Below, in pieces: positions 1,507 to 32,755 of a stretch of 42,022 nt of DNA. Numbering within the stretch: position 1 is the first letter of the stretch; every line of letters begins with the position of its first letter. Source of the DNA: Candidatus Hydrogenedentota bacterium (GTDB taxonomy: Bacteria; Hydrogenedentota; Hydrogenedentia; Hydrogenedentales; SLHB01); assembly GCA_019695095.1 (NCBI GenBank), contig JAIBAQ010000031.1, forward strand, positions 1-42,022. Reading direction: 5' to 3'. A model generated the notes under the pieces. That model was not told where the DNA came from, searched no databases, and saw only the letters and a list, made by a program, of their open reading frames with translations. The translations under genes and the position numbers were made by a program.

Positions 1507-2310
1507 ATGTGCCCTGAACTAATCACTTATCACGGAACCACGGTCAGTTCGTACACGACCATGATGGCGCTCGCGCTGTTTGTATCGGTGTACCTGGCGG
1601 CCCGTGAATGCGAGAAGCGCCGTTTGCGGCTTACTCCACTTGTTGGACTTCTCATCTTTGCGGCTGGATATATGGGTGCGCGTCTCCTCTATGTCATTCA
1701 AGAAGAAGGATTGAGCCGTATCTGGCGAGCGGCTCAATTTTGGCAGCCCGGACTTGTGTTTCATGGCGGCCTTGTTGCGGGAGCCTTAGTCTTCCTCGTA
1801 TATCTTCGCATCCGGCGAATCCCGTTGATTGACGCATTGGATATTGCTGCGCCGTACGCCGCATTGGGTGAGGCCATTGGACGCGTAGGTTGCCTCTTAA
1901 ACGGATGTTGCTGGGGGACCGCCACGCTTGCGCCGTGGGCATTGACCTATCCGCCGGGATCGTTCCCCTTCACTCAGCAGCTCGAAGCGGGAATTCTGGC
2001 CGCTGGGGCACAGTCCTCATTGCCCGTTCACCCCACGCCGATCTACCTGACCATTGGGTTGACTCTGGTATTCGTTATTCTCAAGCGCAGTCTTGATTGG
2101 AGCGCGTTTGCAGGCGTCACGATCTTGCTCTATGCCCTTCTCCAAGGCATATTGCGGTTTGCCGTCGAGTGCTATCGAGGCGATGTCACGCCCATTCTAT
2201 GGGGACTCACGTGGGGACAGTGGATTAGCGCCGCCCTTGTCGCGGTGTCAGCCGCAATGCTTCTGTTGGCTTACCGGCGGCATCAGGAACGATGGACGGC
2301 TCGCTATTGA
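1507..2310 (+). CDS. lgt: Prolipoprotein diacylglyceryl transferase
   Basis: Integral membrane enzyme that moves diacylglycerol from phosphatidylglycerol to the lipobox cysteine of prelipoproteins, the first step of lipoprotein maturation. Family landmarks are visible in order: GLVFHGGLVAG, then the signature GEAIGRVGCLLNGCCWG with the conserved Arg and Asn, then LPVHPTPIYL, then RFAVECYRGD and a closing GLTWGQWIS helix. The frame is open further upstream to 1396, but the ATG at 1507 (MCPELITYHG) gives the normal Lgt N-terminus and 267 residues, so I chose it. The 3' end overlaps the convergent sulfatase gene by 7 bp. The neighbouring sulfatase is itself a predicted lipoprotein and so a likely client. 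Confidence 0.93.
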   Translation: MCPELITYHGTTVSSYTTMMALALFVSVYLAARECEKRRLRLTPLVGLLIFAAGYMGARLLYVIQEEGLSRIWRAAQFWQPGLVFHGGLVAGALVFLVYLRIRRIPLIDALDIAAPYAALGEAIGRVGCLLNGCCWGTATLAPWALTYPPGSFPFTQQLEAGILAAGAQSSLPVHPTPIYLTIGLTLVFVILKRSLDWSAFAGVTILLYALLQGILRFAVECYRGDVTPILWGLTWGQWISAALVAVSAAMLLLAYRRHQERWTARY

Positions 2311-7752: not shown

Positions 7753-10700
7753 TTACGTGAAAACGCAGAGCCCCTCAACGTGGGACTTGCTACCGTCGTT
7801 GGCCCACGGGTCCAGTTCGCTGGGGTCTTTGAGTTGTTGACCGCGCGAACGCGGCACGGCCAAGAAGCCTGACGCGACGTCTCCTAGCCCTGTCATGTCA
7901 CTCCATAGCTTCTCGAATTGCGCGACGGGATAGACGTCTTCCTGACCATGTCCCCAGCGCCTCTTCACGTCCTTGATCGTCACATATGTGGGGACTCGCT
8001 GGGCGACGCGTCGAATGGCCTCGGCGATTACGCTTTCGGGACCTTCCAAGTCGGCGCGGGACAGGCCGAACACCGCAAGCAACGAATCAATTTGCACCCA
8101 CGTGGTCATGGAGTTGTAGTAGCTGAGTTTCAGCTCGTCCTCTTCACGCGGTTGGGCAAGCCCTTCGAGAAGCCGCACGCGCCCATTTACGCGGGCCAAG
8201 CCACCGCCACGGTCCACGATTCTCCGTGGCACGACTTCAAACGTCAGCGTCCTTCCCGAGACAAGGTGCAATCCCAGCGCGAGTGGATCCAAATCGGCGC
8301 CTAATGTGTCGATGTTATGGAGCATGATTGTGTCGAGTTGGGGGCGTTCACGCAGCATCTTCGCCAGCACGCCGTTTCGTAGCAGGTTGGGCAGTTCATA
8401 CCAATGGCCCGGCGGGTTGAATCGTTGGATGGGCAGGTTGTCGACGTAATCGCTCCCCTCTCCCACCGATCGCGCCCAGCCCATCAGCGCGCCGCGCACT
8501 GCTTCTCGGACTTTCTGCTTCTGTTCGTCGAGCGTCTCTTGCGGCATCTCTTCCCACAGAAACATGAGATCGCGAACCATTGGAACCAGCCGTTGCGCGA
8601 TCGAGCGCCCCGGACTTAGGAAGACGGGGCCTGGATACCCGTAGTTTGCGGTTCGCTCAAGGTGACGTTCTATGGGCGCATGAGTAAGGAAGCTCGTGGA
8701 AACGGCGTGTAATGGTGGAGCGCCATACGTCTTAGCGGCTCTCCGCGACTTTGCCAGGTGTATTTCCAGGAAACTACGATGTTGTCCATTCATCATCACG
8801 AATGGATTGAGGGCCTTGATCGCCCCGGCACCGGTGGTCCATCGGCTGCCGACTCCGCCCGCCAGCGAAAGAACGGCCGCGCGTCCTTCGCGCAAGGCCT
8901 CTTCCCCGCGCTTCTGCGCCCCGTCAGAATCTAAAAATGGTGTCACGTCGCCAGGAAACGTGTCATCGATCTCTGTTTCAACCGGCAGACGATTGTGAGC
9001 CAGTCCGATACGGCCGCTTCGAAGGTCGGCGCGCAACTGCTCATGTTGAATTCCATCGAATCCGTGCTCGGCCTTGATACGTTGAGCGCCGGCGTCCCAC
9101 TCGATTCGATCGGCTTGAGTAGCCGGATTCGCCACACGGAACAAATTGCTGACAATGGTCCGCAAGAGGCCAAACGTCTCTTCGGGATTGCTGACGCGCG
9201 CGGTGACATGATCCAATTCCGCTCGCCTCAAGTACGGTATCGTCTCTGGCGCACTTCGCACCAGCTCGGGGGCCTGAAGGGCATAGTACCGCGAAGGCAT
9301 CAGGGCGTCATCACCCCGGCGGAGAGTTGCGGTGGTCCCAGCTTGATTGATCGCGAAATTGTACACAACGGGGTCCATGGCAAACGGAAGCGCGTCTTCC
9401 ATTTCGCGTTTCGTGCGCACCATGATTTCGAGTATCTCGTCCTTGAACCGTTGGTGGTGTTGTGGCGATACGTACATCGCCATTCCCCCGCCGGACATGC
9501 CGCCGAGCATTTGGAAACCCCAATAGTCGTCACCGAAAGCGGCATTGGCACGCGCTGTCAGGGTCTCGGTGAAATGGTTCGTGACCCATGGGATGATCGT
9601 TTTAAGTGGCGCATTCCAATTCCTTGTGGTGAAGTGCGCCAGACTTCGAATGTCGCCTGATTTCAGCGACGCGAGAATTCCGTCGAATATCTCACGCATC
9701 GAAAGTCGCGCCTTCCACTCGGATTCAGAGCGAAGCAGATACTTCTCCGTGACCATCTCGAGAATGGGACCTACGTTCTGCGCCATTCCTCCGTGGATCA
9801 ACACCAGCGAACTGGCCAGACGGTCTGTGATTTCCGGATGCAGGTCGTCCGTGCCGAGAATGCGGTGTTGAGGCAGCAGGCGGCCCTTGCTAATGCCGAA
9901 TTCGGGGTCATCGGGGGTTGCCTGAGCGCCTTCAATAACTTTGATTCCGGGCCAGACGCCGCCGGAATCTTGCCACCCACCACCGGACCCTCCCAGCCAC
10001 TCGCCAAGTATGGCGCGAGAAGCAACCAGTCGTCGCTCATTCTCGCAAAGAGAACCTTCCAGGTGGGCGGTCTGTCCGGTAGCGCGCATCAACACGGCGA
10101 CGATGCCTGCCAAGAGATTGGTGGAAACTGCCAAGCGCGATCCCTTGGGAATGTCATTTACTTGGGTAACCAACTCGATTCCCATGCCACGGCCGGCTAC
10201 TCGCGCAAGGATATCCGCGACGGAATGCGAGGTACCCTCAAACGATGGCGGAATAAGTCCACTGGCAATCACGCCTGCTTTGAGAAGGCTTAAGTAGTCG
10301 TTTCCAAAGTTGAACAGGTCGGTAAGATCGGTGATGTCCTTCGTTGCATTCAGGTCGACGCTCGTCAGTCGAAGAATGGGTTCCTGAATCACACGGACAC
10401 AACAACGAATGGGGGGAGTTGCGCCTTTATCGCGCCCGTACACGCCAAGGTCGACGGAGATGTTTACGACGCGAGCGCCCTCGGGATAGTCCATCCCCAG
10501 GAAGAAGATGTCGGACCATCCGCTGTGGCTGAGGTCAAGTCGTACGGGCGTAGACTCGACGAGCAATGGGTAGAGCAAGGATCCCTCTTCACGCTGCAGG
10601 AGTTCCGGACGTATCCGGACGGGGTGGTCGTCGGTGTGCCCTACGCGAAACATCCATTGATTGCCGCGGCCCGCACGCACGCTGCGGCGTACTTGGTCTG

Positions 10701-11103
10701 CGAGGTTCTGAAATGCGAGGTGGCGATACGCCTCTGCAAGCGCACTCAGGACAGTCGCATTCGGACCCTGATCCACAAGCGCCGCCCGAAAGCGCGCAAT
10801 CGATTCTTCAAATCGCCGATCCAGCAAATCGACGAATCCAGCAAAAGGCACGCGACCCACGCTGGACAGTTCTTTCGAGTCCATCAATACAAACCGGCAA
10901 GCGGCGTAGAGAAAGAGAGTTGCTCGAACTCGTTCGTAGAGGTTCTTCGCATTTCCCCTGAAGTGCTCTAATTCGCCCAGTAGCTCGAGCAACTGAGAAG
11001 TGGTCAGGCCCTTGCACAAGGAAACAAACGAACGATCGCGAATCGCGGCCTCCGTGCTTGTTATCGTGTCAATAAGGGGATTCACCGTGTTACTCGCTGC
11101 CAT
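7753..11103 (-). CDS. Fusion of fucokinase-like GHMP sugar kinase and UDPGP-type nucleotidyltransferase
   Basis: 1116 residues with three parts. Residues 1-180 are helical and unassigned. About 185-650 resemble fucokinase-type GHMP kinases: RLDLSHSGWSD (188-198), an altered ATP loop PKGSRLAVST (319-328; relatives read close to GSGLGTSS), GGGWQDSGG (374-382) and MLGGMSGGGM (532-541). About 730-1110 form a UTP:sugar-1-phosphate uridylyltransferase domain with LAGGVGSRW (747-755) and HNIDTLGADLD. Together these could phosphorylate a free sugar and make the UDP-sugar; the sugar is unknown. The ATG at 11103 overlaps the end of the GalU-like gene by 14 bp, implying translational coupling; an open frame to 11274 encodes no recognisable extension. 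The loop change makes kinase activity uncertain. Confidence 0.85.
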   Translation of the reverse strand: MAASNTVNPLIDTITSTEAAIRDRSFVSLCKGLTTSQLLELLGELEHFRGNAKNLYERVRATLFLYAACRFVLMDSKELSSVGRVPFAGFVDLLDRRFEESIARFRAALVDQGPNATVLSALAEAYRHLAFQNLADQVRRSVRAGRGNQWMFRVGHTDDHPVRIRPELLQREEGSLLYPLLVESTPVRLDLSHSGWSDIFFLGMDYPEGARVVNISVDLGVYGRDKGATPPIRCCVRVIQEPILRLTSVDLNATKDITDLTDLFNFGNDYLSLLKAGVIASGLIPPSFEGTSHSVADILARVAGRGMGIELVTQVNDIPKGSRLAVSTNLLAGIVAVLMRATGQTAHLEGSLCENERRLVASRAILGEWLGGSGGGWQDSGGVWPGIKVIEGAQATPDDPEFGISKGRLLPQHRILGTDDLHPEITDRLASSLVLIHGGMAQNVGPILEMVTEKYLLRSESEWKARLSMREIFDGILASLKSGDIRSLAHFTTRNWNAPLKTIIPWVTNHFTETLTARANAAFGDDYWGFQMLGGMSGGGMAMYVSPQHHQRFKDEILEIMVRTKREMEDALPFAMDPVVYNFAINQAGTTATLRRGDDALMPSRYYALQAPELVRSAPETIPYLRRAELDHVTARVSNPEETFGLLRTIVSNLFRVANPATQADRIEWDAGAQRIKAEHGFDGIQHEQLRADLRSGRIGLAHNRLPVETEIDDTFPGDVTPFLDSDGAQKRGEEALREGRAAVLSLAGGVGSRWTTGAGAIKALNPFVMMNGQHRSFLEIHLAKSRRAAKTYGAPPLHAVSTSFLTHAPIERHLERTANYGYPGPVFLSPGRSIAQRLVPMVRDLMFLWEEMPQETLDEQKQKVREAVRGALMGWARSVGEGSDYVDNLPIQRFNPPGHWYELPNLLRNGVLAKMLRERPQLDTIMLHNIDTLGADLDPLALGLHLVSGRTLTFEVVPRRIVDRGGGLARVNGRVRLLEGLAQPREEDELKLSYYNSMTTWVQIDSLLAVFGLSRADLEGPESVIAEAIRRVAQRVPTYVTIKDVKRRWGHGQEDVYPVAQFEKLWSDMTGLGDVASGFLAVPRSRGQQLKDPSELDPWANDGSKSHVEGLCVFT

Positions 11104-12049
11104 GCAATCGCGACTCCGCAAGCAATTCGGCGACATCCGAAAGGATCTCGACGCGGTCCTGTCCCGCGAGCCCCAGCGCAATCTGTGTTTGCAGGACTCC
11201 GTACTTTGCGCCGATATCGTGTCTTGAGCCGCTGACCTCCATCGCCAGACACCGTTCTTTTCCGGCAAGCTCATTCAGCGCGGTCGTCAGTTGAACGTCC
11301 GCGCCCCCCGCCTTGGCCGCCGCGACTCCCTCTTCAAGCAGGCGGAAAACCGACGGGGTCAGTACGTACATCCCGAAAAAGCAAAGATAGTGACCAACGC
11401 GAAGACCAGGAGTGTGCAATTCAACTTCCGCAACACTGAGGGATGGCTTCTCCAGTATTCGCTCGATTTGGTAGGCATTGGGCAGATTGTGCAAGCGCTT
11501 GCCTGCCACGGTACCGTATCGTCCTACCAGATGTTCGCGCGTTGCTTGGACACCGGCAACAGTACAACTTTCCTGGGCTGCCAGTCGGATGAGCTGTTGG
11601 GCGCACCGGGAGTTTGGAACGTGAGAAACATACAAGTGATCGCTCAGCAGGAGCAGAAAGGGCTCATTGTCAACGAAGTTGTGCGCGCAATAGACGGCGT
11701 GCCCATATCCCAACGGCTCGGTTTGCGCCACGAATCGCAGTCTACGGCCCAGTTCAGACAACCGCTCACCCTGGCGCTTGGCCCACTCCTGTCCCTTGAA
11801 CGCGGCCAGTAGGTTGGTCCGCAGCGACTCCAGCAGACGCGTGTACTGCGCCTCGTCACCCGGAGCGCAGACAACGCAGATCTCCTCGATACCGCTTTCG
11901 AGCGCCTCCTCCGCAATGATCTGGAGGACCGGTTTCACAATTCCGTCGCGATCCACAAGCGGAAGCATAGCCTTCTGCACCGTGTCCGCCGCCGGATACA
12001 GCCGAGCTCCGCGCCCGGCCGCCGTAATTACCGCTTTGCGTACATGCAC
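11090..12049 (-). CDS. GalU-like UTP-glucose-1-phosphate uridylyltransferase
   Basis: 319-residue nucleotidyltransferase of the GalU type, which makes UDP-glucose (or a related UDP-sugar) from UTP and sugar-1-phosphate. The N-terminus has AVITAAGRGARLYPAAD with the family's Gly-rich nucleotide loop and a Lys in VQKAMLPLVD, followed by QTEPLGYGHAV and SDHLYVS for the metal-binding region. Start is GTG at 12049 with AGGAG nine bases upstream. Its 3' end overlaps the kinase-UDPGP fusion, so two different uridylyltransferase folds are encoded back to back. Specificity for glucose is inferred from family only. Confidence 0.87.
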   Translation of the reverse strand: MHVRKAVITAAGRGARLYPAADTVQKAMLPLVDRDGIVKPVLQIIAEEALESGIEEICVVCAPGDEAQYTRLLESLRTNLLAAFKGQEWAKRQGERLSELGRRLRFVAQTEPLGYGHAVYCAHNFVDNEPFLLLLSDHLYVSHVPNSRCAQQLIRLAAQESCTVAGVQATREHLVGRYGTVAGKRLHNLPNAYQIERILEKPSLSVAEVELHTPGLRVGHYLCFFGMYVLTPSVFRLLEEGVAAAKAGGADVQLTTALNELAGKERCLAMEVSGSRHDIGAKYGVLQTQIALGLAGQDRVEILSDVAELLAESRLHGSE

Positions 12050-16329: not shown

Positions 16330-17487
16330 TTACTGCAAACCGCCGGTTTTTGTGTCGGGGGGCCCTGCCAGATTTCGTACCACAGCCTCCACAAAGTCAG
16401 CGGTGTGCTCCACCGTCGTATAATCTATCTCGCCGGGCCGGTCCCCCTCCACGTCAAAGTCCGTACGCCCACCACGTGCCGTAATCCCTATCGCCTTGTA
16501 ACCGCGCGTATACGCAAGGTAAGCATCCGTTGGTAAGCCGCGATGTACAATTGGCGAAGCGGTAGACTCCCGTGAAGCCGCTTGCGCCGCTTTAATCAAC
16601 TCTGGATCGGACTTAAAAGTGTGTAGCAGGCCTTCCGCCCTCGTGTAAAACACATCGCCCTGGCCCACATCGTCGACGTTGATGAAGTAGGTGTTCGATT
16701 TGTCTAAGCGATGCACACGAAGGAAGTGCCGCATCCCGCTCAGCCACGTTTCTTTACTGCCAGTCGCCAAGAACCAAATATCTGAATTTTCCACGGGAGC
16801 CCGTTGAATGCGGTCCGCGAGTTCCAGCATGACCGCTACGCCGGACGCATTGTCTGATGCGCCGCGCACATAGTCATTCGACAATTCGCAGGAACCAACT
16901 GCAAATGCGGCGCCGATAAGGACACCAAGACAGCTCCATTGAACGATAAGGTCGGGCCTGATTGACCAGTCCTCGAAAAGCGCCACATCGCGGAGGACAC
17001 AACAGACCAATAGGATAACCATGGAGACCACAACCAAAATGTGAGCGGGGCGCAACCATCGTTCCACCTCCGGACGCCGCAAGAAGTGGTCGCGGGGGCT
17101 ATCGTAGTGCGCGGTAATCACAATGAGTCGTTCCGGCCTGAGCGCGTGCAGCCTCGCGACAACATTCTGAGTTTCATACTGGGGCAGCAGATTCCCCAGG
17201 ATACGGTAACCGGAGAATTCGGCGAGATAAAGGAGGAATACAATGCAGCCGTAAGTAAACGCCAGCCATGGTTCCCAGGATGCGAGCAATGCAACGACAA
17301 CGGCTTCGCCATAGTAGGAGGCAAACAGAAGCCATGGACTCTCTATGGCAAAGAAATCGTCGATTTCCACGTCCGGGGTTACGAGGGTCAGCCGGTCGCG
17401 AATGTACTCCGCGGCGGACCGCTCGCTCTTGGTGCTCGCGCCCCGGTGTGTCAGATTGCCCGCGAGATATTCGATATCGCGGCGCAT
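16330..17487 (-). CDS. M28-family aminopeptidase-like membrane protein
   Basis: 385 residues combining an M28 zinc peptidase domain with four or so membrane helices inserted in two pairs (about 50-90 and 145-200). Metal-ligand motifs are recognisable: TAHYDSP (His127), RGASDNASG (Asp212), a Glu at 246 in GSKETWLSGM, INVDDVG and a C-terminal EHTADF. The Glu-Glu pair usually seen in the third motif is Lys-Glu, so the general base appears lost. The ATG at 17487 has AAGG five bases upstream and begins 16 bp after the ald stop, suggesting an ald-M28 operon. The gene may encode a non-catalytic or altered peptidase. Confidence 0.8.
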   Translation of the reverse strand: MRRDIEYLAGNLTHRGASTKSERSAAEYIRDRLTLVTPDVEIDDFFAIESPWLLFASYYGEAVVVALLASWEPWLAFTYGCIVFLLYLAEFSGYRILGNLLPQYETQNVVARLHALRPERLIVITAHYDSPRDHFLRRPEVERWLRPAHILVVVSMVILLVCCVLRDVALFEDWSIRPDLIVQWSCLGVLIGAAFAVGSCELSNDYVRGASDNASGVAVMLELADRIQRAPVENSDIWFLATGSKETWLSGMRHFLRVHRLDKSNTYFINVDDVGQGDVFYTRAEGLLHTFKSDPELIKAAQAASRESTASPIVHRGLPTDAYLAYTRGYKAIGITARGGRTDFDVEGDRPGEIDYTTVEHTADFVEAVVRNLAGPPDTKTGGLQ

Positions 17488-17503
17488 TTCCGCCTTGCCC
17501 ACG

Positions 17504-18604
17504 CTAGACCTCGGCGCAATCCAGGCCAAAGGCGTCGGCAACTCCCTGGTGCGTCACGGCCCCTTGGTACACATTAAGTCCGCGCTTTAACGCGGGATCC
17601 TCGGCAATGGCGCGTTCCAGGCCTTTGTCGGCGAGGGCCAAGCCGTAGCCTAGTGTCGCGTTTGTCAGCGCGTAAGTGGACGTCCGAGGTACGGCCCCGG
17701 GCATGTTCGTGACACAATAGTGCACGACATCATGGACCATATACGTGGGATCGTCGTGTGTGGTTGGACGCGACGTCTCGAAGCAGCCGCCTTGATCGAT
17801 GGCAATATCCACAATGGCCGAGCGTTGACGCATGCCGCGCACCATTTCCTTCGTAACAAGTCGAGGAGCCCTGGCTCCGGGAATCAGAACGGCCCCGATC
17901 ACCAAGTCCGCATGCGTGACTTCCTCCGCAATTGCCGCGCGATTGGACATGAGCGTTGTAACGTGCCCGCCCATAATATCGTGGATGTATCGCAGCCGGG
18001 CTGGGTCCACATCAAGGATCGTCACGTGAGCTCCCATGCCCACGGCCACGCGGCACGCGTTTTGTCCTGCTGTGCCCGCCCCGAGAATCACTACGTGGGC
18101 CGGCCTGACACCGGAGACGCCGCTTAGAAGGATACCCATGCCTCCGTACAAGGCCTCCAGGCAGTGCGCGCCCTTCTGCACGGAAAGCCTGCCCGCCACT
18201 TCGCTCATGGGAGTCAGAAGTGGCAAGGTGCCATCGTCTCTCTGAATTGTCTCGTAGGCGACACCCGATACACGCTTCTTCATCATGGTGCGGGTCAGGT
18301 GCTCGTCAGAAGCCAAGTGGAGGTACGTGTAGATGATCTGGCCATCGTACATGTACTCCCACTCTTGGGCGATTGGCTCCTTAACCTTGATGATCATGTC
18401 CGAACGGTCCCAGACTGCGCGAGGATGCTGGACAATCTGAGCGCCTGCGGCCCGGTATTCGGCATCTGAGATTCCGCTGCCGATTCCTGCGCCCTTTTCA
18501 ACGAGGACTTTGTGTCCGTGCGCCACAAACGCAGATACACCGGGAGCCGCCAATGCCACTCGGGCTTCACCGGTCTTTATCTCCTTGGGTACGCCTACGA
18601 TCAT
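17504..18604 (-). CDS. ald: Alanine dehydrogenase
   Basis: NAD-dependent enzyme interconverting L-alanine with pyruvate and ammonia. The N-terminus MIVGVPKEIKTGEARVAL, the catalytic Lys and His in KVKEPIAQEW and TYLHLASDEHL, and the NAD-binding VVILGAGTAGQNACRVAVGMG are all present, and the length of 366 residues is normal. The ATG at 18604 has GGGGAG seven bases upstream; five extra codons upstream are unsupported. A TATACT box lies upstream without a convincing -35, and a perfect 11-bp dyad TCTGATTCAGA (18626-18636) lies 22 bases before the start and could be an operator. Confidence 0.96.
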   Translation of the reverse strand: MIVGVPKEIKTGEARVALAAPGVSAFVAHGHKVLVEKGAGIGSGISDAEYRAAGAQIVQHPRAVWDRSDMIIKVKEPIAQEWEYMYDGQIIYTYLHLASDEHLTRTMMKKRVSGVAYETIQRDDGTLPLLTPMSEVAGRLSVQKGAHCLEALYGGMGILLSGVSGVRPAHVVILGAGTAGQNACRVAVGMGAHVTILDVDPARLRYIHDIMGGHVTTLMSNRAAIAEEVTHADLVIGAVLIPGARAPRLVTKEMVRGMRQRSAIVDIAIDQGGCFETSRPTTHDDPTYMVHDVVHYCVTNMPGAVPRTSTYALTNATLGYGLALADKGLERAIAEDPALKRGLNVYQGAVTHQGVADAFGLDCAEV

Positions 18605-18710
18605 GGTATGTCTCCCCATGTTTAATCTGAATCAGAAGTATATGTTTCGCCGTGACTGCGTTCTATATTATCCGGCCCGGGTGACCTTGCACAGTGATAG
18701 TGATAGCATT

Positions 18711-18772: not shown

Positions 18773-19222
18773 ATGCGCGCAGTAGTCCAGCGAGTTTCCG
18801 AATCATCGGTATCCGTGAATGGCCACGTTGTCGGACGGATTGGCCGGGGACTGCTGGTGCTTTTGGGAGTGGCGCACTCCGATTCGGTAGACGATGTCAA
18901 ACAACTGGCCGACAAAGTAGCCGGGTTGAGGTGTTTTCAAGACGACGCAAGCAAGTTCAATCTGTCTGTTGAAGACATCGGCGGAAGTGTTCTTGCCGTT
19001 TCACAATTTACATTGTATGGAGATTGCCGTAAGGGCCGCCGCCCATCGTTTACGGATGCGGCCCGGCCGGAGCACGCTATTCCTCTCTACGAGTCCTTTG
19101 TCGAGCTTCTGCGTCAACGGAACATTCACGTCGAAACGGGCGAATTTGGGGCGCATATGGATGTCCGTCTGGTCAATGACGGTCCGGTGACCTTGCTCCT
19201 CGATTCGCAAAAGGCCTTCTGA
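18773..19222 (+). CDS. dtd: D-aminoacyl-tRNA deacylase
   Basis: Cytoplasmic proofreading enzyme that removes D-amino acids (and glycine from tRNA-Ala) from mischarged tRNA. The full-length 149-residue protein begins [15 protein letters not shown] and shows the two active-site signatures, [10 protein letters not shown] and the NxGPVT-like [19 protein letters not shown] lies just upstream of the ATG. It is the first gene of a tight operon; the next gene starts two bases after its stop, though its tRNA role has no obvious tie to the glycan-type genes that follow. Confidence 0.97.
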
Positions 19223-19224
19223 AC

Positions 19225-20943
19225 ATGGGTGCACTCTGCGGCATTCTGGGCCGGTCCGATTCCATCGCGCTGAACGCGATGATTGATGTATTGGCGCCGC
19301 ACGCGCGGGAGATGCGATGCCTCGAAGGCTCCAACTACTCTGTCGCGTCGGCGTACTGCTCTGAAGATCCCTTGTGCCTTGTCGATGGCGAAACTACTGA
19401 CATAAACGACGCGCCTCTCAAACCCCACGAAGTGCATGCCCGCTGCGCGAAGGCCAAGTCGCCGGGAACGCTGGCGTTTCGGGGAGGTTTCGCCGCCGTT
19501 GTTTCCCTGAGTGACGGCGATCGGTGGTGGCTGTTGCGGGACCGGCTCGGCAGAAAGCCTCTGTATTACTACGTCGGCGACAACGTGTTGGTCTTCGCCA
19601 CGGAGCTTAAGGCTCTGCTGGCCTCCGGGTATGTTCCTAGACGGTTGAATCTGGTCGCTGTCGACCGCTATTTGACGCTCCGGTGCGTGCCCGGAACGGA
19701 ATCGATGGTTCAAGGCATTTGCCGCGTAAGGCCAGGTCATGTCGTTGAGTATGCGTCCAATCGTTGTTCTTCTACCGAGTTCGCCACGTTCAACATGCGA
19801 ACGGAATCGCTATCGCGCGACGAGGCTGCCCGCGCGCTTCGAGAACGGTTAGAGAAGGCTCTTGGACATACACAGTCTGAATTGCTGCTCTGGTCATCAG
19901 GAATTGATGCGGCCGCTCTGCACGCGCTTAAACCTCAATTGCGGCCCTGTTTCGCGGTCCTCGAACGAAGCTGGCAAGACGAAACGCGACTCGCTAAAGA
20001 ATCCGCCAAGAGTCTCCACATCCGTATGCAAACGATGCAGGCGCGCCGCTTTACGGAAGAGACCTTCTTCCGATGCGTGGCATGCCTAGACGAGCCCATA
20101 GCCGACCCGCTCGTGTTCCCGCTTTGGTTGATGACGGAAGCTGCTTCGGACATCGGCGCTCACTTTCTTTCTGGGCATGGGGCGGATGAAGTGTTAGGCG
20201 GGTATGCCCGCTATCACTTTCTCCAGAAGGCGCAGGAGGTGGAGCCCCTCATACCTGCCGGGCTTCTCAGCAATATTACCCCCTCACTGCCGCCAAACGC
20301 GTTTGTGAGACGAACGACTCGCTTCCTTACTTCCATGCGCGACCCTCAGCGCGCCTATCTCTCCTTGCTGAGCGTTTTCGATGAGGGAGAGCGCGAAGAC
20401 TTGTACACGGAAGCCGTGAAGGCAGCCCTGTACGAGTTCGGACCGCGAAAATCCACGATCCAAGATCACTTTAACCAAGAGGATCTGACGGCAAATGTGC
20501 TCTCTCTCGATCTGCATGTTGGCCTCCCCAATATCCTGCTTGCCAAATGCGACCGCATCGCCGCGGCTCACGGAGTTACGCTCAGCCATCCCTATTTGAA
20601 CGATTCGATGCTCGACTTTGCGTTGAGCATACCGTCCGACATCAAGTTTGGTGTCCGCAGCAAACCGTTATTGCGGCTTGCCATGAAAGGTATTCTGCCT
20701 CCATCGATTCGTTTGAGGGCGCGAAGAGATTTTAAGGTCCCGCAAAGTGGCAACGTTTTGCGAGTTATCGAAACTGTCACCAAAGAGACGATCACCCCGG
20801 ATCGCGTCGATGCAACGGGACTGTTCAAGTGGCACGCGGTGGAAACCATACTTCGTTCGGCATCCCACAATGTGTATCGGCGCCGCCAGTTTTGGGCGCT
20901 GCTCATGTTCTTTGCGTGGTATCGCTGCACGATGGAGACCTGA
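19225..20943 (+). CDS. Asparagine synthetase (AsnB) homologue with degenerate active sites
   Basis: 572 residues with the AsnB two-domain plan. The N-terminal Ntn-glutaminase part keeps RDRLGRKPLYY and FATELKALL, but the catalytic Cys is residue 5 (MGALCGILG) rather than 2, and the RGPD and downstream substrate-binding segments are missing. In the synthetase part the ATP pyrophosphate loop, normally SGGxDS, reads SSGIDAA (224-230), while DEPIADP and SGHGADEVLGGY are retained. A glutamine-dependent reaction is therefore unlikely; an ammonia-dependent or altered amidotransferase remains possible. Related proteins in surface-polysaccharide loci amidate uronic acids, which fits the formyltransferase and glycosyltransferase neighbours. 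The start is fixed by the 2-bp gap after dtd. Confidence 0.82.
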   Translation: MGALCGILGRSDSIALNAMIDVLAPHAREMRCLEGSNYSVASAYCSEDPLCLVDGETTDINDAPLKPHEVHARCAKAKSPGTLAFRGGFAAVVSLSDGDRWWLLRDRLGRKPLYYYVGDNVLVFATELKALLASGYVPRRLNLVAVDRYLTLRCVPGTESMVQGICRVRPGHVVEYASNRCSSTEFATFNMRTESLSRDEAARALRERLEKALGHTQSELLLWSSGIDAAALHALKPQLRPCFAVLERSWQDETRLAKESAKSLHIRMQTMQARRFTEETFFRCVACLDEPIADPLVFPLWLMTEAASDIGAHFLSGHGADEVLGGYARYHFLQKAQEVEPLIPAGLLSNITPSLPPNAFVRRTTRFLTSMRDPQRAYLSLLSVFDEGEREDLYTEAVKAALYEFGPRKSTIQDHFNQEDLTANVLSLDLHVGLPNILLAKCDRIAAAHGVTLSHPYLNDSMLDFALSIPSDIKFGVRSKPLLRLAMKGILPPSIRLRARRDFKVPQSGNVLRVIETVTKETITPDRVDATGLFKWHAVETILRSASHNVYRRRQFWALLMFFAWYRCTMET

Positions 20944-20946
20944 GCG

Positions 20947-21888
20947 ATGCGAATTGCCGTTGCGGGCGGAGGCTATCTCGCGTCACAAATTCTGGAAGCG
21001 GTATTGCATTCCAATCATGAACTTGTCGCACTGATCCAGGATGCGCGGCGTTATCGCGGAGTAAAACGTTACCTCGGTCCTATGGTCGGAGCATTCTTTC
21101 CCAAGCGGGAAGTATCCGGTGTAGCCCTCCGAAAGCGAATTCCAATTGTCTTCATCGATAAGATGACGGAAGACGAACTGGCGCCGCTCCGAGAACTCAA
21201 GCTCGACCTCATACTAGTTTGCGGGTTCGCAATTATTCTCAAGAAACCCCTGCTAGATTTGCCTGCCATTGGGTGTGTGAATTGCCATTCCTCCTTACTG
21301 CCAAGACATAGAGGCCCCAACCCGTTCACCGCGGCAATTCTGGCAAATGAGAAAGAGACTGGAATCACGTTCCATGTAGTGTCCGAGGGGATCGATACCG
21401 GCGACATTCTGAAACAATACGCGTTCCCAATCTCGGGAACCGATACGGCGGGTTCCATTCATCGCCGGGCTTCGGACCTCGCGAGTGAAAAAATGGCCGA
21501 GGTCCTCTCATATATTGAACAAAACGGACTCAAGGGGTGCCCGCAACACTCCGAAAACGCGACCTACGACAAGCGCTTGACCCCGTCGGAATTGTGTATT
21601 GACTGGACGTGTCCGGCTGACATGATAGAGAGAAAAGTGCGGGCGTGTTTCCCCTTCACGATCGCCCGGACAAAGTACAAAGGCCGGACGGTATACCTCT
21701 CGCGCGTTCGCATGAGCAGCAAGCATATCGAAGCTCAACCCGGAGAGGTTATCGAGAACATTCCACAACTCAGGGTAGGAACGGGTAAGGGCGTTGTAAT
21801 CATCGAGATTGCGCACACCTTGCGGCCAATTCCTTGGTTCTGGCCACGATTGTTGCGTAGGCCCCAGATCGGCGAGCGACTGGGATAG
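20947..21888 (+). CDS. Formyltransferase of the Fmt/sugar N-formyltransferase superfamily
   Basis: 313-residue enzyme using 10-formyl-tetrahydrofolate. The catalytic triad of the family is visible as Asn112 and His114 in VNCHSSLLPRHRGPNPF and Asp150 in GIDTGDIL; the C-terminal part (YDKRLTPSELCIDW) resembles the Fmt C-terminal domain. It could be methionyl-tRNA formyltransferase, but def is absent and the neighbours are an AsnB homologue, a glycosyltransferase and an acetyltransferase. That setting makes formylation of an amino sugar in a surface glycan a reasonable inference. The ATG is three bases after the previous stop. Confidence 0.85.
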   Translation: MRIAVAGGGYLASQILEAVLHSNHELVALIQDARRYRGVKRYLGPMVGAFFPKREVSGVALRKRIPIVFIDKMTEDELAPLRELKLDLILVCGFAIILKKPLLDLPAIGCVNCHSSLLPRHRGPNPFTAAILANEKETGITFHVVSEGIDTGDILKQYAFPISGTDTAGSIHRRASDLASEKMAEVLSYIEQNGLKGCPQHSENATYDKRLTPSELCIDWTCPADMIERKVRACFPFTIARTKYKGRTVYLSRVRMSSKHIEAQPGEVIENIPQLRVGTGKGVVIIEIAHTLRPIPWFWPRLLRRPQIGERLG

Positions 21889-21892
21889 GCTC

Positions 21893-22981
21893 GTGCCCAC
21901 ACCCGTTTCCATAATCATCCCCGCTCATAACCAGGTCGACTACTGTAAACAGTGCATTGGTTCCATACTCTCAAACACCGACTACCCTCATCGACTGATA
22001 CTCGTAGACAACGGTTCCACGGACGGTGTGGGTGAGTTGTTTGACTCCGTTCCGGGCGCCATTGCCGTTCACAGTCCAACCAACCTCGGATTTCCGGGAG
22101 GGATAAATCTCGGGCTGCCGCACGTTGAAGGTCATGTGCTTATCCTCAACAGTGACACGATCGTTCCCGCGCGCTGGTTGACCAACCTTGTTCACACCCT
22201 CGAATCCTCCGCTCGAATTGGCTTAGTGGGACCGATGAGCAACTGCGTTTCCGGTCCTCAATTAATCGAAGGTCTGTCATTTGAGACCATGACCGAAATC
22301 AATGAATATGCCAGTCAGCTCTGGCAGGAACGTCGAGGGTTTATTGTGGATACCGAGCGTATTGTCGGTTTCTGCATGCTGATCAAGGACGAGACGTTCA
22401 ACGAAGTCGGCGGGCTTGATGAATCCTTCGGTATAGGCAACTTCGAGGACGATGACTATTGCATGCGGGTGAGAAAGGCCGGTTTCCGCATTTGCATCGC
22501 CGAGGGTTGTTTTGTCTTTCACTACGGCAGCCGAACCTTCAGCGCAATGGGCTACACCTCCGACATCTATTCGGATCTGATGAATCGGAATGCCAAACGC
22601 TTCAAGGATAAATGGCGACTGGACGATTCTGGTGGCGCGCGACTGACTCAATTGTCTTATTCCCTTAACCGGGATGCGCGAGAGGCCTTCGAACGCGGCA
22701 ATTTTGACGAAGCAGTTCGACTTCTGAAGGACGCTATCGGCGCAAATCCGTCGATCGATAGAAATTTTAACGATCTGGGTGCGGTGCTCTGGGCCATGGG
22801 AGAGCGCGAAAAGGCATTTGAGTATTTTGCCAAGGCCGTATCCATGAATCATGAATCAAGTGAGGCGCGCGAGAATTTGCGCGATGCCGGCATCGCGTTA
22901 GGGTTACAGAATGAAGCCGATGCAGTACTTTCGAAGAGTCTGCGCATTGGCTTGACGGAGGAAAACGAGCCAAGCCCATGA
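21893..22981 (+). CDS. GT2-family glycosyltransferase with C-terminal TPRs
   Basis: 362 residues. The first 260 form a GT-A fold: VSIIIPAHNQ start, DNGSTD (39-44), the metal-binding LNSDT (DXD at 87-89), ERIVGFCMLI, and FGIGNFEDDDYCMRVRKAG. The last 90 contain TPR-like helices (about 280-345). Start is taken as GTG at 21893, five bases after the formyltransferase stop, because the frame upstream lies inside that gene. It probably adds a sugar to a glycan or protein at the cytoplasmic membrane; TPRs suggest a protein partner or polypeptide acceptor. The end overlaps the GNAT start by 4 bp (ATGA). Confidence 0.88.
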   Translation: MPTPVSIIIPAHNQVDYCKQCIGSILSNTDYPHRLILVDNGSTDGVGELFDSVPGAIAVHSPTNLGFPGGINLGLPHVEGHVLILNSDTIVPARWLTNLVHTLESSARIGLVGPMSNCVSGPQLIEGLSFETMTEINEYASQLWQERRGFIVDTERIVGFCMLIKDETFNEVGGLDESFGIGNFEDDDYCMRVRKAGFRICIAEGCFVFHYGSRTFSAMGYTSDIYSDLMNRNAKRFKDKWRLDDSGGARLTQLSYSLNRDAREAFERGNFDEAVRLLKDAIGANPSIDRNFNDLGAVLWAMGEREKAFEYFAKAVSMNHESSEARENLRDAGIALGLQNEADAVLSKSLRIGLTEENEPSP

Positions 22982-23583
22982 GTATAGAAATCCGCGAGTA
23001 TCGGCAAGACGATGAAGCCGAGTGGATGCGTGTGCATGCCATCATTCTGAGCATCTCGCATGCGTGGAACTACTCCATTCAGGAGCGGCCAGCCTACGAA
23101 GGGTATGAATCCACGCGCTTGGTCGCCCTGTGCGATGGAAAGATAGTCGGCCTAACGGACGCTCAGTATGAGCGAACCCCGGGAGAATTGTGTTTCCAAA
23201 AGGATAGCTGCGGGGGATATGTGCTGGAATTTGGAAGGCTGCCAGAATTCAGCGGACTCAATATTGGCAAACTGCTCGTGGACGCCACTGTCGAGGACGC
23301 AAAGCAGAAGGGATTCCATCGCCTTGAGTATTGGACTCAAGACCGGAAGGCGCAGCGATACTATGCCCGGTTGGGAATGAAAGAGATTGGCAGGCACTAC
23401 CGATTCAGAATGCGGCCCCCGGAGGATGTGAAGAAGTTGCTGGGCGAGACATACATTGGTATCGAATACATCTATTGCGCCTGTCTACCCGAAGAGTGGC
23501 CGCTCATCAAGGAAAAGCACGACATTATTACGAAGCACCCACTTGAGCCACACTTGTGCATCGGTTACGAAGTCCGCTTTTAG
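22978..23583 (+). CDS. GNAT-family N-acetyltransferase
   Basis: 201-residue acetyl-CoA-dependent acetyltransferase. The core motif EFGRLPEFSGLNIGKLLVD, with the family's G/N-x-GxL pyrophosphate loop, is followed by a helix and RYYARLGMKEIGRHYRF, the usual strand-helix of motif B. The ATGA overlap with the glycosyltransferase shows tight coupling, so acetylation of a sugar or side chain in the same pathway is the best guess. The stop codon TAG is the first triplet of repeat copy 3. Substrate is unknown. Confidence 0.85.
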   Translation: MSIEIREYRQDDEAEWMRVHAIILSISHAWNYSIQERPAYEGYESTRLVALCDGKIVGLTDAQYERTPGELCFQKDSCGGYVLEFGRLPEFSGLNIGKLLVDATVEDAKQKGFHRLEYWTQDRKAQRYYARLGMKEIGRHYRFRMRPPEDVKKLLGETYIGIEYIYCACLPEEWPLIKEKHDIITKHPLEPHLCIGYEVRF

Positions 23584-28834: not shown

Positions 28835-29269
28835 CTACGTAGCGCTCGCCCGCGGCTCTATCTCCCTTAGACGGTCGAGGACTCCATTGATGAATCGCGC
28901 CGTCTCCTCTTCTCCGTACACCTTGGTGACTTCAATGGCTTCATTGATGGCTACGTTGGTTGGCACATCCGGTTCGTGCCACATTTCGTACAAGGCCACG
29001 CGCAATACATTGCGCTCGACACGCCCCACCCGGTCTGGAGTCCAGCGATTGAGCGCGGCGTCGATCGCCTCGTCCAATGCGATACGGTGCTCCATCACCC
29101 CGCGGATTAAACGCTCGGCGTACGCTTTAGCGCCTGGCTTCACGGGATTCCCGACCCAGAAGGTCTCGATCGTCGACTCCCAACCGTATTGCGTGAAATC
29201 TAGGCCGAACAAAAACTGCACGGCCCGCTCGCGCGCACGCCGCCGCAACTGTGGATTTATTGCGCTCAC
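28835..29269 (-). CDS. nusB: Transcription antitermination factor NusB
   Basis: 144-residue all-helical RNA-binding protein of the antitermination complex that helps RNA polymerase through rRNA operons together with NusE (ribosomal protein S10). Family features are [17 protein letters not shown] at the N-terminus and [19 protein letters not shown] followed by [13 protein letters not shown] and FINGVLDRL. The start is a GTG that overlaps the ribH stop in a GTGA tetramer, so the two are coupled. The ribH-nusB pairing is widespread in bacteria. Confidence 0.94.
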
Positions 29270-29730
29270 AACTGCTCCAACAGGTTGACCATTTCAATTG
29301 CCGACACTGCTGCATCAAATCCTTTGTTACCGGCCTTCGTACCGGCGCGCTCGACGGCTTGTTCAATATTGTCTGTCGTCAGTATACCGAACAAAACCGG
29401 AACGCCGGTCTCCAGGCTTGCCTGAGCCACACCCTTGGCTGCTTCAGACGCCACGTACTCGAAGTGAGGCGTCCCGCCGCGTATGACCGCGCCCAAGGCC
29501 AACACGGCGTCGTACTTCTTCGTCGCCGCCATCTTCTTTGCAACGAGCGGAATCTCCCAGGAACCTGGCGTCCACGCCACCGTGATCTCGTTGTCGGCTA
29601 CGCCGTGCCGCTTCAGGCCGTCCAGAGCTCCGGCAAGGAGCTTCGATGAGATGAACTCATTGAAGCGCGCCACGACGATGCCATACTTCTTCCCCTTGGA
29701 TACGAGTTTGCCTTCTATCACATTTGGCAT
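29266..29730 (-). CDS. ribH: 6,7-dimethyl-8-ribityllumazine synthase
   Basis: Penultimate riboflavin enzyme; joins 5-amino-6-ribitylaminouracil with dihydroxybutanone phosphate. The 154-residue length and motifs [47 protein letters not shown] and FGILTTDN are typical, with the catalytic His in TPHFEYV. GGGAGAAGG lies just upstream of the ATG. It overlaps nusB by 4 bp and follows ribBA by 36 bp. Confidence 0.97.
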
Positions 29731-29766
29731 AAACCTTCTCCCTATCCATCCGGTCTTCCGCTTCAG

Positions 29767-30960
29767 CTAAGACAACAGATGCCCCAGTTTCTCTTTCTTT
29801 GTCTTCAAGTAACGCTCATTACGTTCGTTGTGCGGAATGATCAAAGGCACACGCCCCGTCACGATCAGTCCGTGCGCTTCGATGCCCACACGTTTGCTCG
29901 GATTGTTCGTAATGAGCCGCATCTTCTTTACTCCAAGATCCGCCAGTATTTGTGCACCGATTCCATACTCGCGGGGATCGGCTTCAAATCCCAGATGCAC
30001 ATTCGCCTCTACCGTATCGAACCCCTTGTCCTGAAGTTCATAAGCCCGAATCTTGTTCACAAGACCGATGCCGCGTCCTTCCTGACGCAAGTACAACAAG
30101 ATGCCCCGGCCTTCCTCCGCAATCATCTTCAACGCTTCGTCCAATTGCTTGCCGCAATCGCAACGTAGAGAACCAAAGACATCTCCGGTGAGGCATTCCG
30201 AGTGAACTCGAACCAGAATGTCATCGTCCGGTCCAATCTCGCCCTTTATCAGAGCCACGTGCTTCTTGCTGTCAATTTCGGTTTCATACGCGGCCAAAAT
30301 GAAGTCGCCGTGCTCTGTCGGCAGTGTCGTTTGGGCCACGCGATTAACCAGCTTCTCGTGCCTTCTTCGGTATTCAATAATACTCTCAATCGAACAGATC
30401 TTGATCCCGTGCTCTTGGGCGAAGTTCTCCAACTGCGGCAGGCGAGCCATGGATCCGTCCGGATTCAGGATTTCACAAAGCACCGCGGACGAATTCAACC
30501 CGGCAATACGCGCCAAGTCCGCGGAACCCTCTGTCTGTCCTGCGCGAACCAGTACTCCGCCTTCGCGAGCCTGCAACGTGTGTACGTGCCCGGGCATTAC
30601 CACGTCTTGGGCCGTCGACTTGGGATCGATTGCGACGCGGATCGTATGGGCGCGATCGAACGCGCTTACCCCCGTCGTGACCCCTTCGGCAGCCTCGATG
30701 GGAGCGTGAAATGCCGTGCCAAACTTGCTGAGATTGTTGTGCGTGATTACGGGAATTCGCAGAAAGTCCATGCGCTCCTTGGTCAACACAAGACACACCA
30801 ATCCGCGGCCGTGCATGGTCATGAAATTGATGATCTCCGGCGTGACTTTCTCCGCGGCAATCACGAGGTCTCCCTCGTTTTCACGGTTTTCATCATCGAC
30901 GAGGATAATCATCCTGCCGGCTCTTAGTTCCTCAACAATCTCTTCAATCGGGGAAAACAT
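29767..30960 (-). CDS. ribBA: Bifunctional dihydroxybutanone phosphate synthase / GTP cyclohydrolase II
   Basis: 397 residues supplying both precursors for riboflavin. The N-terminal RibB part (1-200) has VDDENRENEGDLV and MPGHVHTLQAREGGVL; the C-terminal RibA part has the zinc cysteines Cys256, Cys267 and Cys269 (RVHSECLTGDVFGSLRCDCG), RQEGRGIGL and the NNPSKRVG loop. In the RibB part the usual GHTEA is GQTEG (Gln142), a metal-ligand change that I believe also occurs in other bacterial RibBA proteins, so loss of activity is not certain. AGGAG precedes the ATG. Lies 44 bp after ribE. Confidence 0.95.
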   Translation of the reverse strand: MFSPIEEIVEELRAGRMIILVDDENRENEGDLVIAAEKVTPEIINFMTMHGRGLVCLVLTKERMDFLRIPVITHNNLSKFGTAFHAPIEAAEGVTTGVSAFDRAHTIRVAIDPKSTAQDVVMPGHVHTLQAREGGVLVRAGQTEGSADLARIAGLNSSAVLCEILNPDGSMARLPQLENFAQEHGIKICSIESIIEYRRRHEKLVNRVAQTTLPTEHGDFILAAYETEIDSKKHVALIKGEIGPDDDILVRVHSECLTGDVFGSLRCDCGKQLDEALKMIAEEGRGILLYLRQEGRGIGLVNKIRAYELQDKGFDTVEANVHLGFEADPREYGIGAQILADLGVKKMRLITNNPSKRVGIEAHGLIVTGRVPLIIPHNERNERYLKTKKEKLGHLLS

Positions 30961-31004
30961 GCTTCGCTCCTGCTCTGCGGCGCAGCGTTTGCGCCCGCCA
31001 GAAC

Positions 31005-31637
31005 CTATTTCTCCAAGTAGCCCTGCCGCTGCAACGTCTCCAGCGATAGTCCGCTCCTCGGCACGTTTCGTAGATAGTGATAGATGTGCTTGGCAAACAG
31101 GTCAGCTTCCATGTTGACCAGGTCGCCCGGCCTCTTCTTGCCTAACGTAGTACTGTTTAGCGTTGTGGGAATCAGCGCGACACCGAACGTGTCTCCACTC
31201 GGATCAACGATTGTCAGACTGATTCCGTCGATCGAAATCGACCCTTTGGGCACAAGATACTTCGCGACTTCTGACGGGGCCTGGAACTTCCAAAAAGAAA
31301 AATCTCCCTGGTTCGTGATGGACTTGACGCGGCCCACACCGTCAACGTGACCTTGTACAAAGTGTCCACCCATGCGGTCGCCGAGGGCCATCGCGCGTTC
31401 CAGATTCACGGCGTCGCCGGCCTGCAATGCGCGCAAGGACGACTTTTCCAGCGTTTCAGGAGACATCTGCACGACAAACCCGCTTTCGTCAAACGCAACC
31501 ACGGTCAGGCACACACCATTCACCGCGATACTGTCGCCTTCCTTCATGGAATCGAGCACAGTCTGCGCGAGAATCGTGACGTCGGCGCCCGACCGTCGGG
31601 AAACGACACCTACCTCCTCAATGAGTCCCGTAAACAT
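31005..31637 (-). CDS. ribE: Riboflavin synthase alpha chain
   Basis: Trimeric enzyme that dismutates two lumazines to riboflavin. Two tandem lumazine-binding repeats are evident: MFTGLIEEVGVV...AVNGVCLTVV in the first and GHFVQGHVDGVG...SIDGISLTIV in the second, in 210 residues. The MFTGLIE start is invariant in the family and fixes the ATG at 31637, five bases after the ribD stop. Confidence 0.97.
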   Translation of the reverse strand: MFTGLIEEVGVVSRRSGADVTILAQTVLDSMKEGDSIAVNGVCLTVVAFDESGFVVQMSPETLEKSSLRALQAGDAVNLERAMALGDRMGGHFVQGHVDGVGRVKSITNQGDFSFWKFQAPSEVAKYLVPKGSISIDGISLTIVDPSGDTFGVALIPTTLNSTTLGKKRPGDLVNMEADLFAKHIYHYLRNVPRSGLSLETLQRQGYLEK

Positions 31638-31642
31638 CTCTG

Positions 31643-32755
31643 CTATTCGTGCCTCACGTATGCTTCAACCAACAGATCCGGGCCCACCGGCTTGGCCGTC
31701 ATGCGTTCTAACAGGATGGCCCCGTCCATGTCGGCTATTCCCTCACCTTCGACGGCAGTGATCGCATCGCGACCGCCTACAATCTTCGGCGCGATGAAGA
31801 ACATGACTTTATCCACTATCCCCGCCTCAAACGCCGAAGCGTGAGTCGTTCCGCCGCCCTCGATTAACACGGTCATGATCTCGCGCGCCGCCAATTCGTG
31901 CATCAGGAGACGAAGATCGAGTCCGCCATTTCCACTGGGTATTCTCAGAACCTCATCGGCTCCCTTGAAATCTCTCGATTCGGGGACAGCCACCCAGGTC
32001 GGGGCCTCGCTATCTTGGCGGAAGACTGTCCGATCTCCATCCAAATACTCGTCGGCGTCGACGATTACGCGAACCGGATCTTTGGCTTTGTCCTGGTCCA
32101 ATCTCGTCGTCAGACTCGGATCGTCTAGCATCACCGTCCTGCTACCCACGAGTATGGCGTCCACCTCATTCCGCAGTTGGTGAACAAGTCGTCTCGATTC
32201 CTCGCTGGTGACCCAACGCGAGTTTCCCGTGCGTGTAGCAATCTTGCCGTCGAGCGTCATGCCGCATTTCGCAATCACGAACGGCATCTTCTGCGTAATG
32301 TACTTCGTAAACGCTTCATTGAGCGCGCGCGCTTCTGGCTCAAGCAGCCCCACGTCCACCTGGATTCCAGCGTCGCGTAGGCGGAAGACCCCTTGACCGC
32401 TCACGCGGGGATTGGGGTCGGGCATCGCCACCACGACTCGCGCGGGTCGGTGTTCAATCAGGAATTGGGTGCAGGGCGGCGTCCGGCCTTCGTGACAGCA
32501 CGGCTCAAGCGTCACATACAGCGTTGCCCCCGCGACGTCTCCCCCGGCATCACGTACCGCGTTAACTTCGGCATGCGGCAGGCCGGCCTTTTCGTGAAAA
32601 CCCTCCCCCACGATCCGTCCGTCGCGCACTACGACACAGCCTACCATCGGATTGGGGCTTGTCCGGCCCCTTCCGCGCGCGGCCAATGCCAGGGCGCGCT
32701 GCATGAACTGCGCGTCCCCCGCATTGAAATTTGAGCTGTGCAACTTCTCGGACAT
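31643..32755 (-). CDS. ribD: Bifunctional pyrimidine deaminase/reductase RibD
   Basis: Second and third steps after GTP cyclohydrolase in riboflavin synthesis. The deaminase part shows RTSPNPMVGCVVV, HAEVNAV (zinc His61, catalytic Glu63) and PCCHEGRTPPC (zinc Cys86, Cys95); the reductase part (about 155-365) has CGMTLDGKIAT and VLIEGGGTTHASAF. The ATG at 32755 directly follows the seven-T tract of the leader terminator and has no ribosome binding site. An internal ATG at 32704 (MQRALALAARG) has GGGGGA about ten bases upstream and would give 353 residues. Either could be used. First gene of the riboswitch-controlled operon. Confidence 0.94.
   Translation of the reverse strand: MSEKLHSSNFNAGDAQFMQRALALAARGRGRTSPNPMVGCVVVRDGRIVGEGFHEKAGLPHAEVNAVRDAGGDVAGATLYVTLEPCCHEGRTPPCTQFLIEHRPARVVVAMPDPNPRVSGQGVFRLRDAGIQVDVGLLEPEARALNEAFTKYITQKMPFVIAKCGMTLDGKIATRTGNSRWVTSEESRRLVHQLRNEVDAILVGSRTVMLDDPSLTTRLDQDKAKDPVRVIVDADEYLDGDRTVFRQDSEAPTWVAVPESRDFKGADEVLRIPSGNGGLDLRLLMHELAAREIMTVLIEGGGTTHASAFEAGIVDKVMFFIAPKIVGGRDAITAVEGEGIADMDGAILLERMTAKPVGPDLLVEAYVRHE

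Follow-up and report, generated by a model that had tools for sequence, protein, structure and literature searches.

A conserved dtd-headed gene cassette with a putative role in amino-sugar tailoring in Candidatus Hydrogenedentota

N-Formylation within a glycan pathway is known from Francisella tularensis, whose O-antigen contains the formamido sugar Qui4NFm together with the amidated uronic acid GalNAcAN, and in which WbtJ is the N-formyltransferase (PMC10924466). The 10-formyl-THF N-formyltransferase superfamily, for which the roles of an Asn/His/Asp triad have been described (PMC4388273), includes Fmt (TIGR00460) as well as sugar N-formyltransferases such as the N-terminal UDP-Ara4N formyltransferase of ArnA and the one-domain enzymes WlaRD, WbkC and FdtF. 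For AsnB-type proteins, the described systems are asparagine synthetase B and the XrtA/PEP-CTERM amidotransferase (TIGR03108), and the glutaminase residues have been named for human ASNS (PMC6748925). Here we describe a gene cassette in a metagenome-assembled genome of Candidatus Hydrogenedentota that can be compared with each of these systems. Like the Francisella locus with WbtJ, it would provide N-formylation within a glycan pathway, but the Francisella locus holds genes for sugar activation, dehydratase and aminotransferase functions, whereas the cassette consists of tailoring enzymes and one glycosyltransferase. No Hydrogenedentota formyltransferase and no operon of such make-up was found in the literature.

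In the window (the whole 42,022-nucleotide stretch analysed), the genes for dtd, an AsnB-like protein, a formyltransferase (FT), a GT2-TPR glycosyltransferase (GT) and a GNAT protein form one co-oriented run on the plus strand, with successive gaps of 2, 3 and 4 bp, a final 4-bp overlap and no internal stops in the five open reading frames. A preliminary description of the window had reported the last four as a tight run directly after dtd, and its coordinates and spacing (3- and 4-bp gaps, 4-bp overlap) proved exact. The five-gene run including dtd is probably a translationally coupled operon, with the following features.

18773-19222, plus strand: dtd, D-aminoacyl-tRNA deacylase, 149 aa; opens the run (Tyr_Deacylase PF02580, 3e-60; TIGR00256, 196.5 bits against a cutoff of 101.5)
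19225-20943, plus strand: AsnB-like protein, 572 aa, 2-bp gap from dtd (Asn_synthase PF00733, 5.9e-41)
19237-19239, plus strand: Cys5 codon of the AsnB-like protein; C5 is invariant in the AsnB-like alignment, and the canonical nucleophile is residue 2
19894-19914, plus strand: degenerate PP-loop SSGIDAA of the AsnB-like protein (canonical SGGxDSS)
20947-21888, plus strand: FT, Fmt/ArnA-type N-formyltransferase paralogue, 313 aa, 3-bp gap (Formyl_trans_N PF00551, 1.8e-28; Formyl_trans_C PF02911, 1.9e-12)
21280-21288, plus strand: N112-x-H114 of the FT formyl-transfer triad, invariant in 27 FT sequences
21373-21375, plus strand: H143 of FT, shared by ArnA and 27/27 FT, with Met at this site in nearly all Fmt
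21394-21396, plus strand: D150, catalytic-triad Asp of FT, likewise invariant across the 27 FT sequences
21893-22981, plus strand: GT2 glycosyltransferase, 362 aa, GTG start, 4-bp gap after FT (Glycos_transf_2 PF00535, 8.3e-18)
about 22676-22879, plus strand: C-terminal TPR repeats of GT (TPR models)
22978-23583, plus strand: GNAT N-acetyltransferase, 201 aa, with a conserved C-terminal extension and a 4-bp overlap with GT (Acetyltransf_1 PF00583, 1.6e-9)

Upstream of dtd and divergent from it are ald (17504-18619) and an M28 peptidase gene (16330-17541), and a gene for a DUF2225 protein lies downstream of GNAT in convergent orientation. Elsewhere, the window encodes an lgt homologue, an HMGL-like enzyme with a LeuA dimerisation domain, a hybrid histidine kinase, a protein with a long TPR array fused to a sulfatase domain (2304-4559, minus strand) and an operon of ordinary riboflavin genes with ribD, ribE, ribBA and ribH in a row (29266-32755, minus strand). 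A 1173-aa protein (7753-11274, minus strand) matches UDPGP (PF01704) only weakly, over residues 950-1069, and has no Pfam family in its remainder. No polysaccharide operon was found in the window by Pfam annotation, and neither a complete nucleotide-sugar pathway in or adjoining the cassette nor a nucleotide-sugar operon next to FT was present.

The distribution of the cassette was examined in a phylum sample of 68 Candidatus Hydrogenedentota genomes, all from one order, with 11 families searched, and gene orders were read by tblastn on the regions around the loci. FT was found in 44 of the 68 genomes and GNAT in 40. The order dtd-(asnB)-(FT)-(GT)-(GNAT) was kept in 10 of the 11 families, nine of them with FT, and genes dropped out of it but were never permuted. 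Among the examined genomes, dtd-asnB-FT-GT-GNAT, dtd-FT-GT-GNAT, dtd-FT-GT and dtd-FT were each seen in six, dtd-FT-GNAT in five, dtd-asnB-FT-GT in three and dtd-GT-GNAT in two, besides three single patterns. Because many other genomes of the phylum show the same order, the cassette is more than a product of chance, in agreement with the dedicated module with conserved synteny proposed earlier. The attachment of dtd, recommended as a check, was also borne out: dtd lay upstream of FT in all 33 genomes in which both were seen (with asnB in between in 10). Adjacency was 11/11 for asnB-FT, 20/22 for FT-GT and 16/23 for GT-GNAT. Thus dtd belongs to the unit, which comprises five genes, and the asnB-like gene, seen in family f1 only and absent from most cassettes, is an optional, lineage-limited member. 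In 11 genomes dtd was in place without the cassette. In family f10 (17 genomes), FT was not found at all, and dtd usually stands without the cassette.

The GT-GNAT pair was kept without FT in genus g35 of f10 (G044 and G051) and in G011, and in G030 it was relocated and still together. GT and GNAT of G007 (L080) form a single in-frame 529-aa open reading frame; its linker looks disrupted, so the fusion is taken as suggestive only and may stem from assembly or from degradation. Of the self-standing module suggested earlier, the linked run stood, but GNAT was unlinked from FT in more than one third of the genomes with both. The two were on separate contigs in about 15 genomes, and this separation is real because in several such genomes both genes lie well inside contigs. 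As far as was searched, the cassette as a unit is specific to Candidatus Hydrogenedentota.

A dedicated pathway had been said to become doubtful if synteny were lacking or if FT were the only Fmt of its genome; both points were examined and neither held. FT was rejected as the only Fmt, with the true fmt of the source genome adjoining rsmB on another contig (C4, L003) and FT in its own clade; fmt orthologues were found in 35 of 40 genomes searched. Placed in a tree, as had been advised, the FT clade was split from all Fmt, including those of the phylum itself, with support of 100/97 and 100/99, where the bootstrap is incompletely settled and ArnA, the sole sugar enzyme included, sits on a long branch. 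FT did not group with ArnA. A second paralogue of the FT clade was observed in the source genome on contig C2 (L002:1495-2409), away from dtd, GT and GNAT.

Compared with Fmt, FT has the same two-domain fold, the Asn/His/Asp triad (N112, H114 and D150, all invariant in the 27 FT sequences) and the SLLPxxRG motif. It differs in forming its own clade, in scoring below the equivalog cutoff of TIGR00460 (159.7 against 201.5 bits), in lacking the Fmt loop-1 motif, in having His for Met at position 143, and in not adjoining def or rsmB. Compared with ArnA and the one-domain sugar N-formyltransferases, FT shares the Formyl_trans_N core and the triad, but at 24% identity; with ArnA it also shares His143 and a close fold (TM 0.85 to 2bln), but it lacks the UDP-GlcA dehydrogenase domain and arnB, arnC or arnD neighbours and branches apart. 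His occupies position 143 in 27/27 FT and ArnA, whereas 27 of 30 Fmt of the phylum and 47 of 60 sequences from outside it have Met, and His after GxTx may mark sugar formyltransferases in general. The AF2 model of FT (pLDDT 92.7) had Fmt and ArnA as its top PDB matches. Among solved relatives, Fmt (216 bits) ranked above ArnA (156 bits) and these above the one-domain sugar enzymes, in profile and fold searches alike; since Fmt ranks first, the assignment of FT to sugar substrates is inferential, and a tRNA substrate keeps some probability.

FT relatives with the same context were also sought outside the phylum and rejected, as the best outside matches were ordinary Fmt, many in def-fmt-rsmB order. 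Only one outside protein, from Vampirovibrionales, took the FT side in the tree, where its branch is long. Its gene (L138:7621-8604) lies directly 3' of two genes that by eye resemble PilM/PilO-type pilus-assembly genes.

GT and GNAT are clear members of their families. GT scored 65.3 bits on PF00535 (cutoff 23.3), and its N86-x-D88 and E185-D-D-D188 residues (DxD-type acidic motif) are near-invariant in 22 homologues. GNAT scored 38.5 bits on Acetyltransf_1 (cutoff 20.7), and its AF2 model (mean pLDDT 90.8) has the GNAT fold; the fold matches spread over protein acetyltransferases, including N-terminal ones, and small-molecule acetyltransferases, so that no substrate can be read from them. 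Relatives of GNAT on plasmids had 22-29% identity only. The solo GNAT of G003 adjoins a GDP-mannose-dehydratase-family gene and a UDPGP gene, and those of G009 and G038 lie near DegT genes; no recurrent conserved neighbours of the unlinked GNAT genes were found.

We moderately favour the reading that the cassette is a phylum-level tailoring operon, mostly vertically inherited, whose enzymes add N-formyl and N-acetyl groups to amino sugars and whose cytoplasmic GT transfers one of these, with the AsnB-like protein as an accessory. The occurrence of the same gene order across much of the phylum points to a real tailoring pathway, with an amino sugar as the most likely substrate. FT would use 10-formyl-THF to formylate a small-molecule amine, most probably that of an NDP-amino sugar supplied by DegT/SDR enzymes encoded elsewhere. 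GNAT would N-acetylate the same amino sugar or a companion one, and the GT2-TPR enzyme, working in the cytoplasm, would pass the tailored sugar to an acceptor; its TPR repeats would suit one that is a protein. The AsnB-like protein would be an optional accessory unlikely to carry out glutamine-dependent amidation, and dtd most probably keeps its usual function and serves as an anchor for position and co-expression. Amino-sugar tailoring explains the findings most economically: FT, GNAT and GT jointly fit it, DegT enzymes occur in 67 of the 68 genomes (eight in the source genome), and some unlinked GNAT genes lie near sugar-nucleotide genes, although none of these points is decisive. In a bolder version, which is unlikely, the whole phylum would share a sugar modification with N-formyl and N-acetyl groups, probably carried by protein and not known outside Hydrogenedentota, and the AsnB homologue would have been kept for another role after losing both of its amidotransferase chemistries.

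The preliminary description had compared the cassette with tailoring of O-antigens. A variable O-antigen or capsule set combining AsnB-type amidation of a uronic acid with FT and GNAT has its precedent in the pairing of Qui4NFm, GalNAcAN and WbtJ in Francisella (PMC10924466), but conservation makes it unlikely here. The median identity to the window protein is 70% for GNAT (32 genomes), 65% for dtd and 69% for ald, compared with 53% for asnB, 52% for GT and 47% for FT, and the Fmt of relatives mostly show 57-69%. By sequence identity, GNAT is conserved like a housekeeping gene, on a par with dtd, which favours an invariant substrate over a variable O-antigen. In the FT tree, sequences from one family fall together, with no clear sign of exchange between families; this is consistent with vertical inheritance, and inheritance of the cassette looks mostly vertical. 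In addition, no flippase, polymerase or sugar-nucleotide operon was found near the cassette, and the AsnB-like protein is degenerate.

The amidation step proposed earlier was not supported. The AsnB-like protein resembles asparagine synthetase B and the TIGR03108 enzymes in overall domain layout and in the SGxGADE segment, but it differs in its lost glutaminase residues and degenerate PP-loop. Compared with E. coli AsnB, Cys is at position 5 instead of 2, N74 is replaced by Asp in 11 of 11 sequences, and the segments with R49 and D98 are missing. The PP-loop is SSGIDAA in the window and SAGIDCx or similar in most relatives, with SGG[IL]DSA in two of 11. In G012 (L075:4459-6057), an in-frame gap removes the whole PP-loop, either as a real deletion or as an assembly error. 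Three canonical AsnB of the source genome score 321-326 bits, against 143 bits for the cassette protein, which scored 179.8 bits on TIGR03108 against a cutoff of 816.9. Because most glutaminase residues are lost and the PP-loop is degenerate in most members, glutamine-dependent amidation is unlikely, and the protein is probably not a working glutamine-dependent amidotransferase. The same degeneracy, and the optional presence of the gene, weigh against a small natural-product or osmolyte pathway in which the AsnB-like protein, FT, GT and GNAT make and cap an amino-acid-derived metabolite. This would recall the AsnB/GNAT pair of N-acetylglutaminylglutamine amide, since the AsnB-like protein also matches TIGR03104, far under its cutoff, and both GNAT and FT enzymes cap amines; ATP-grasp, NRPS and dedicated export genes were not found near the cassette, and we consider such a pathway quite unlikely.

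Even less probable is that FT is a second aminoacyl-tRNA formyltransferase in a dtd-headed operon acting on tRNA-borne amino acids or in translation quality control. The constant position of dtd upstream of FT, the best sequence and fold matches to Fmt, the retained C-terminal domain and the more basic FT proteins (mean net charge +4.7, against -2.1 in Fmt) would suit it. However, loop-1 of Fmt is implicated in tRNA binding, and its motif D[RQKN]x1-3GR[GS] was found in 0 of 27 FT against 28 of 30 phylum Fmt, with an FT loop nine residues longer. His143 is ArnA-like, such a scheme offers no role for a GT2 glycosyltransferase, and dtd stays put in the 11 genomes without the cassette. That unrelated modifying enzymes are co-transcribed by chance downstream of dtd has comparably little probability, because the unlinked GNAT genes and the losses of asnB, GT and FT in some lineages are set against an order fixed across families, short gaps and a GT-GNAT pair that persists without FT and after relocation.

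For a phylum whose members are known mostly as metagenome-assembled genomes, the cassette offers a biochemical marker that is conserved and open to testing. The work also brings in a formyltransferase clade likely to be annotated as Fmt, and an example of an AsnB paralogue retained with degraded active sites; calling FT an Fmt, or the AsnB-like protein an asparagine synthetase, would mislead pathway reconstructions. DegT count was tried as a marker of co-occurrence with the cassette and was uninformative, as DegT presence in nearly all genomes does not track the cassette. In one protein (L097:5738-8149, plus strand), an SDR (epimerase/dehydratase) is fused to a DegT aminotransferase, and frames of 720-890 aa around DegT matches in many genomes suggest that Hydrogenedentota widely carry this SDR-DegT fusion, whether or not they have the cassette.
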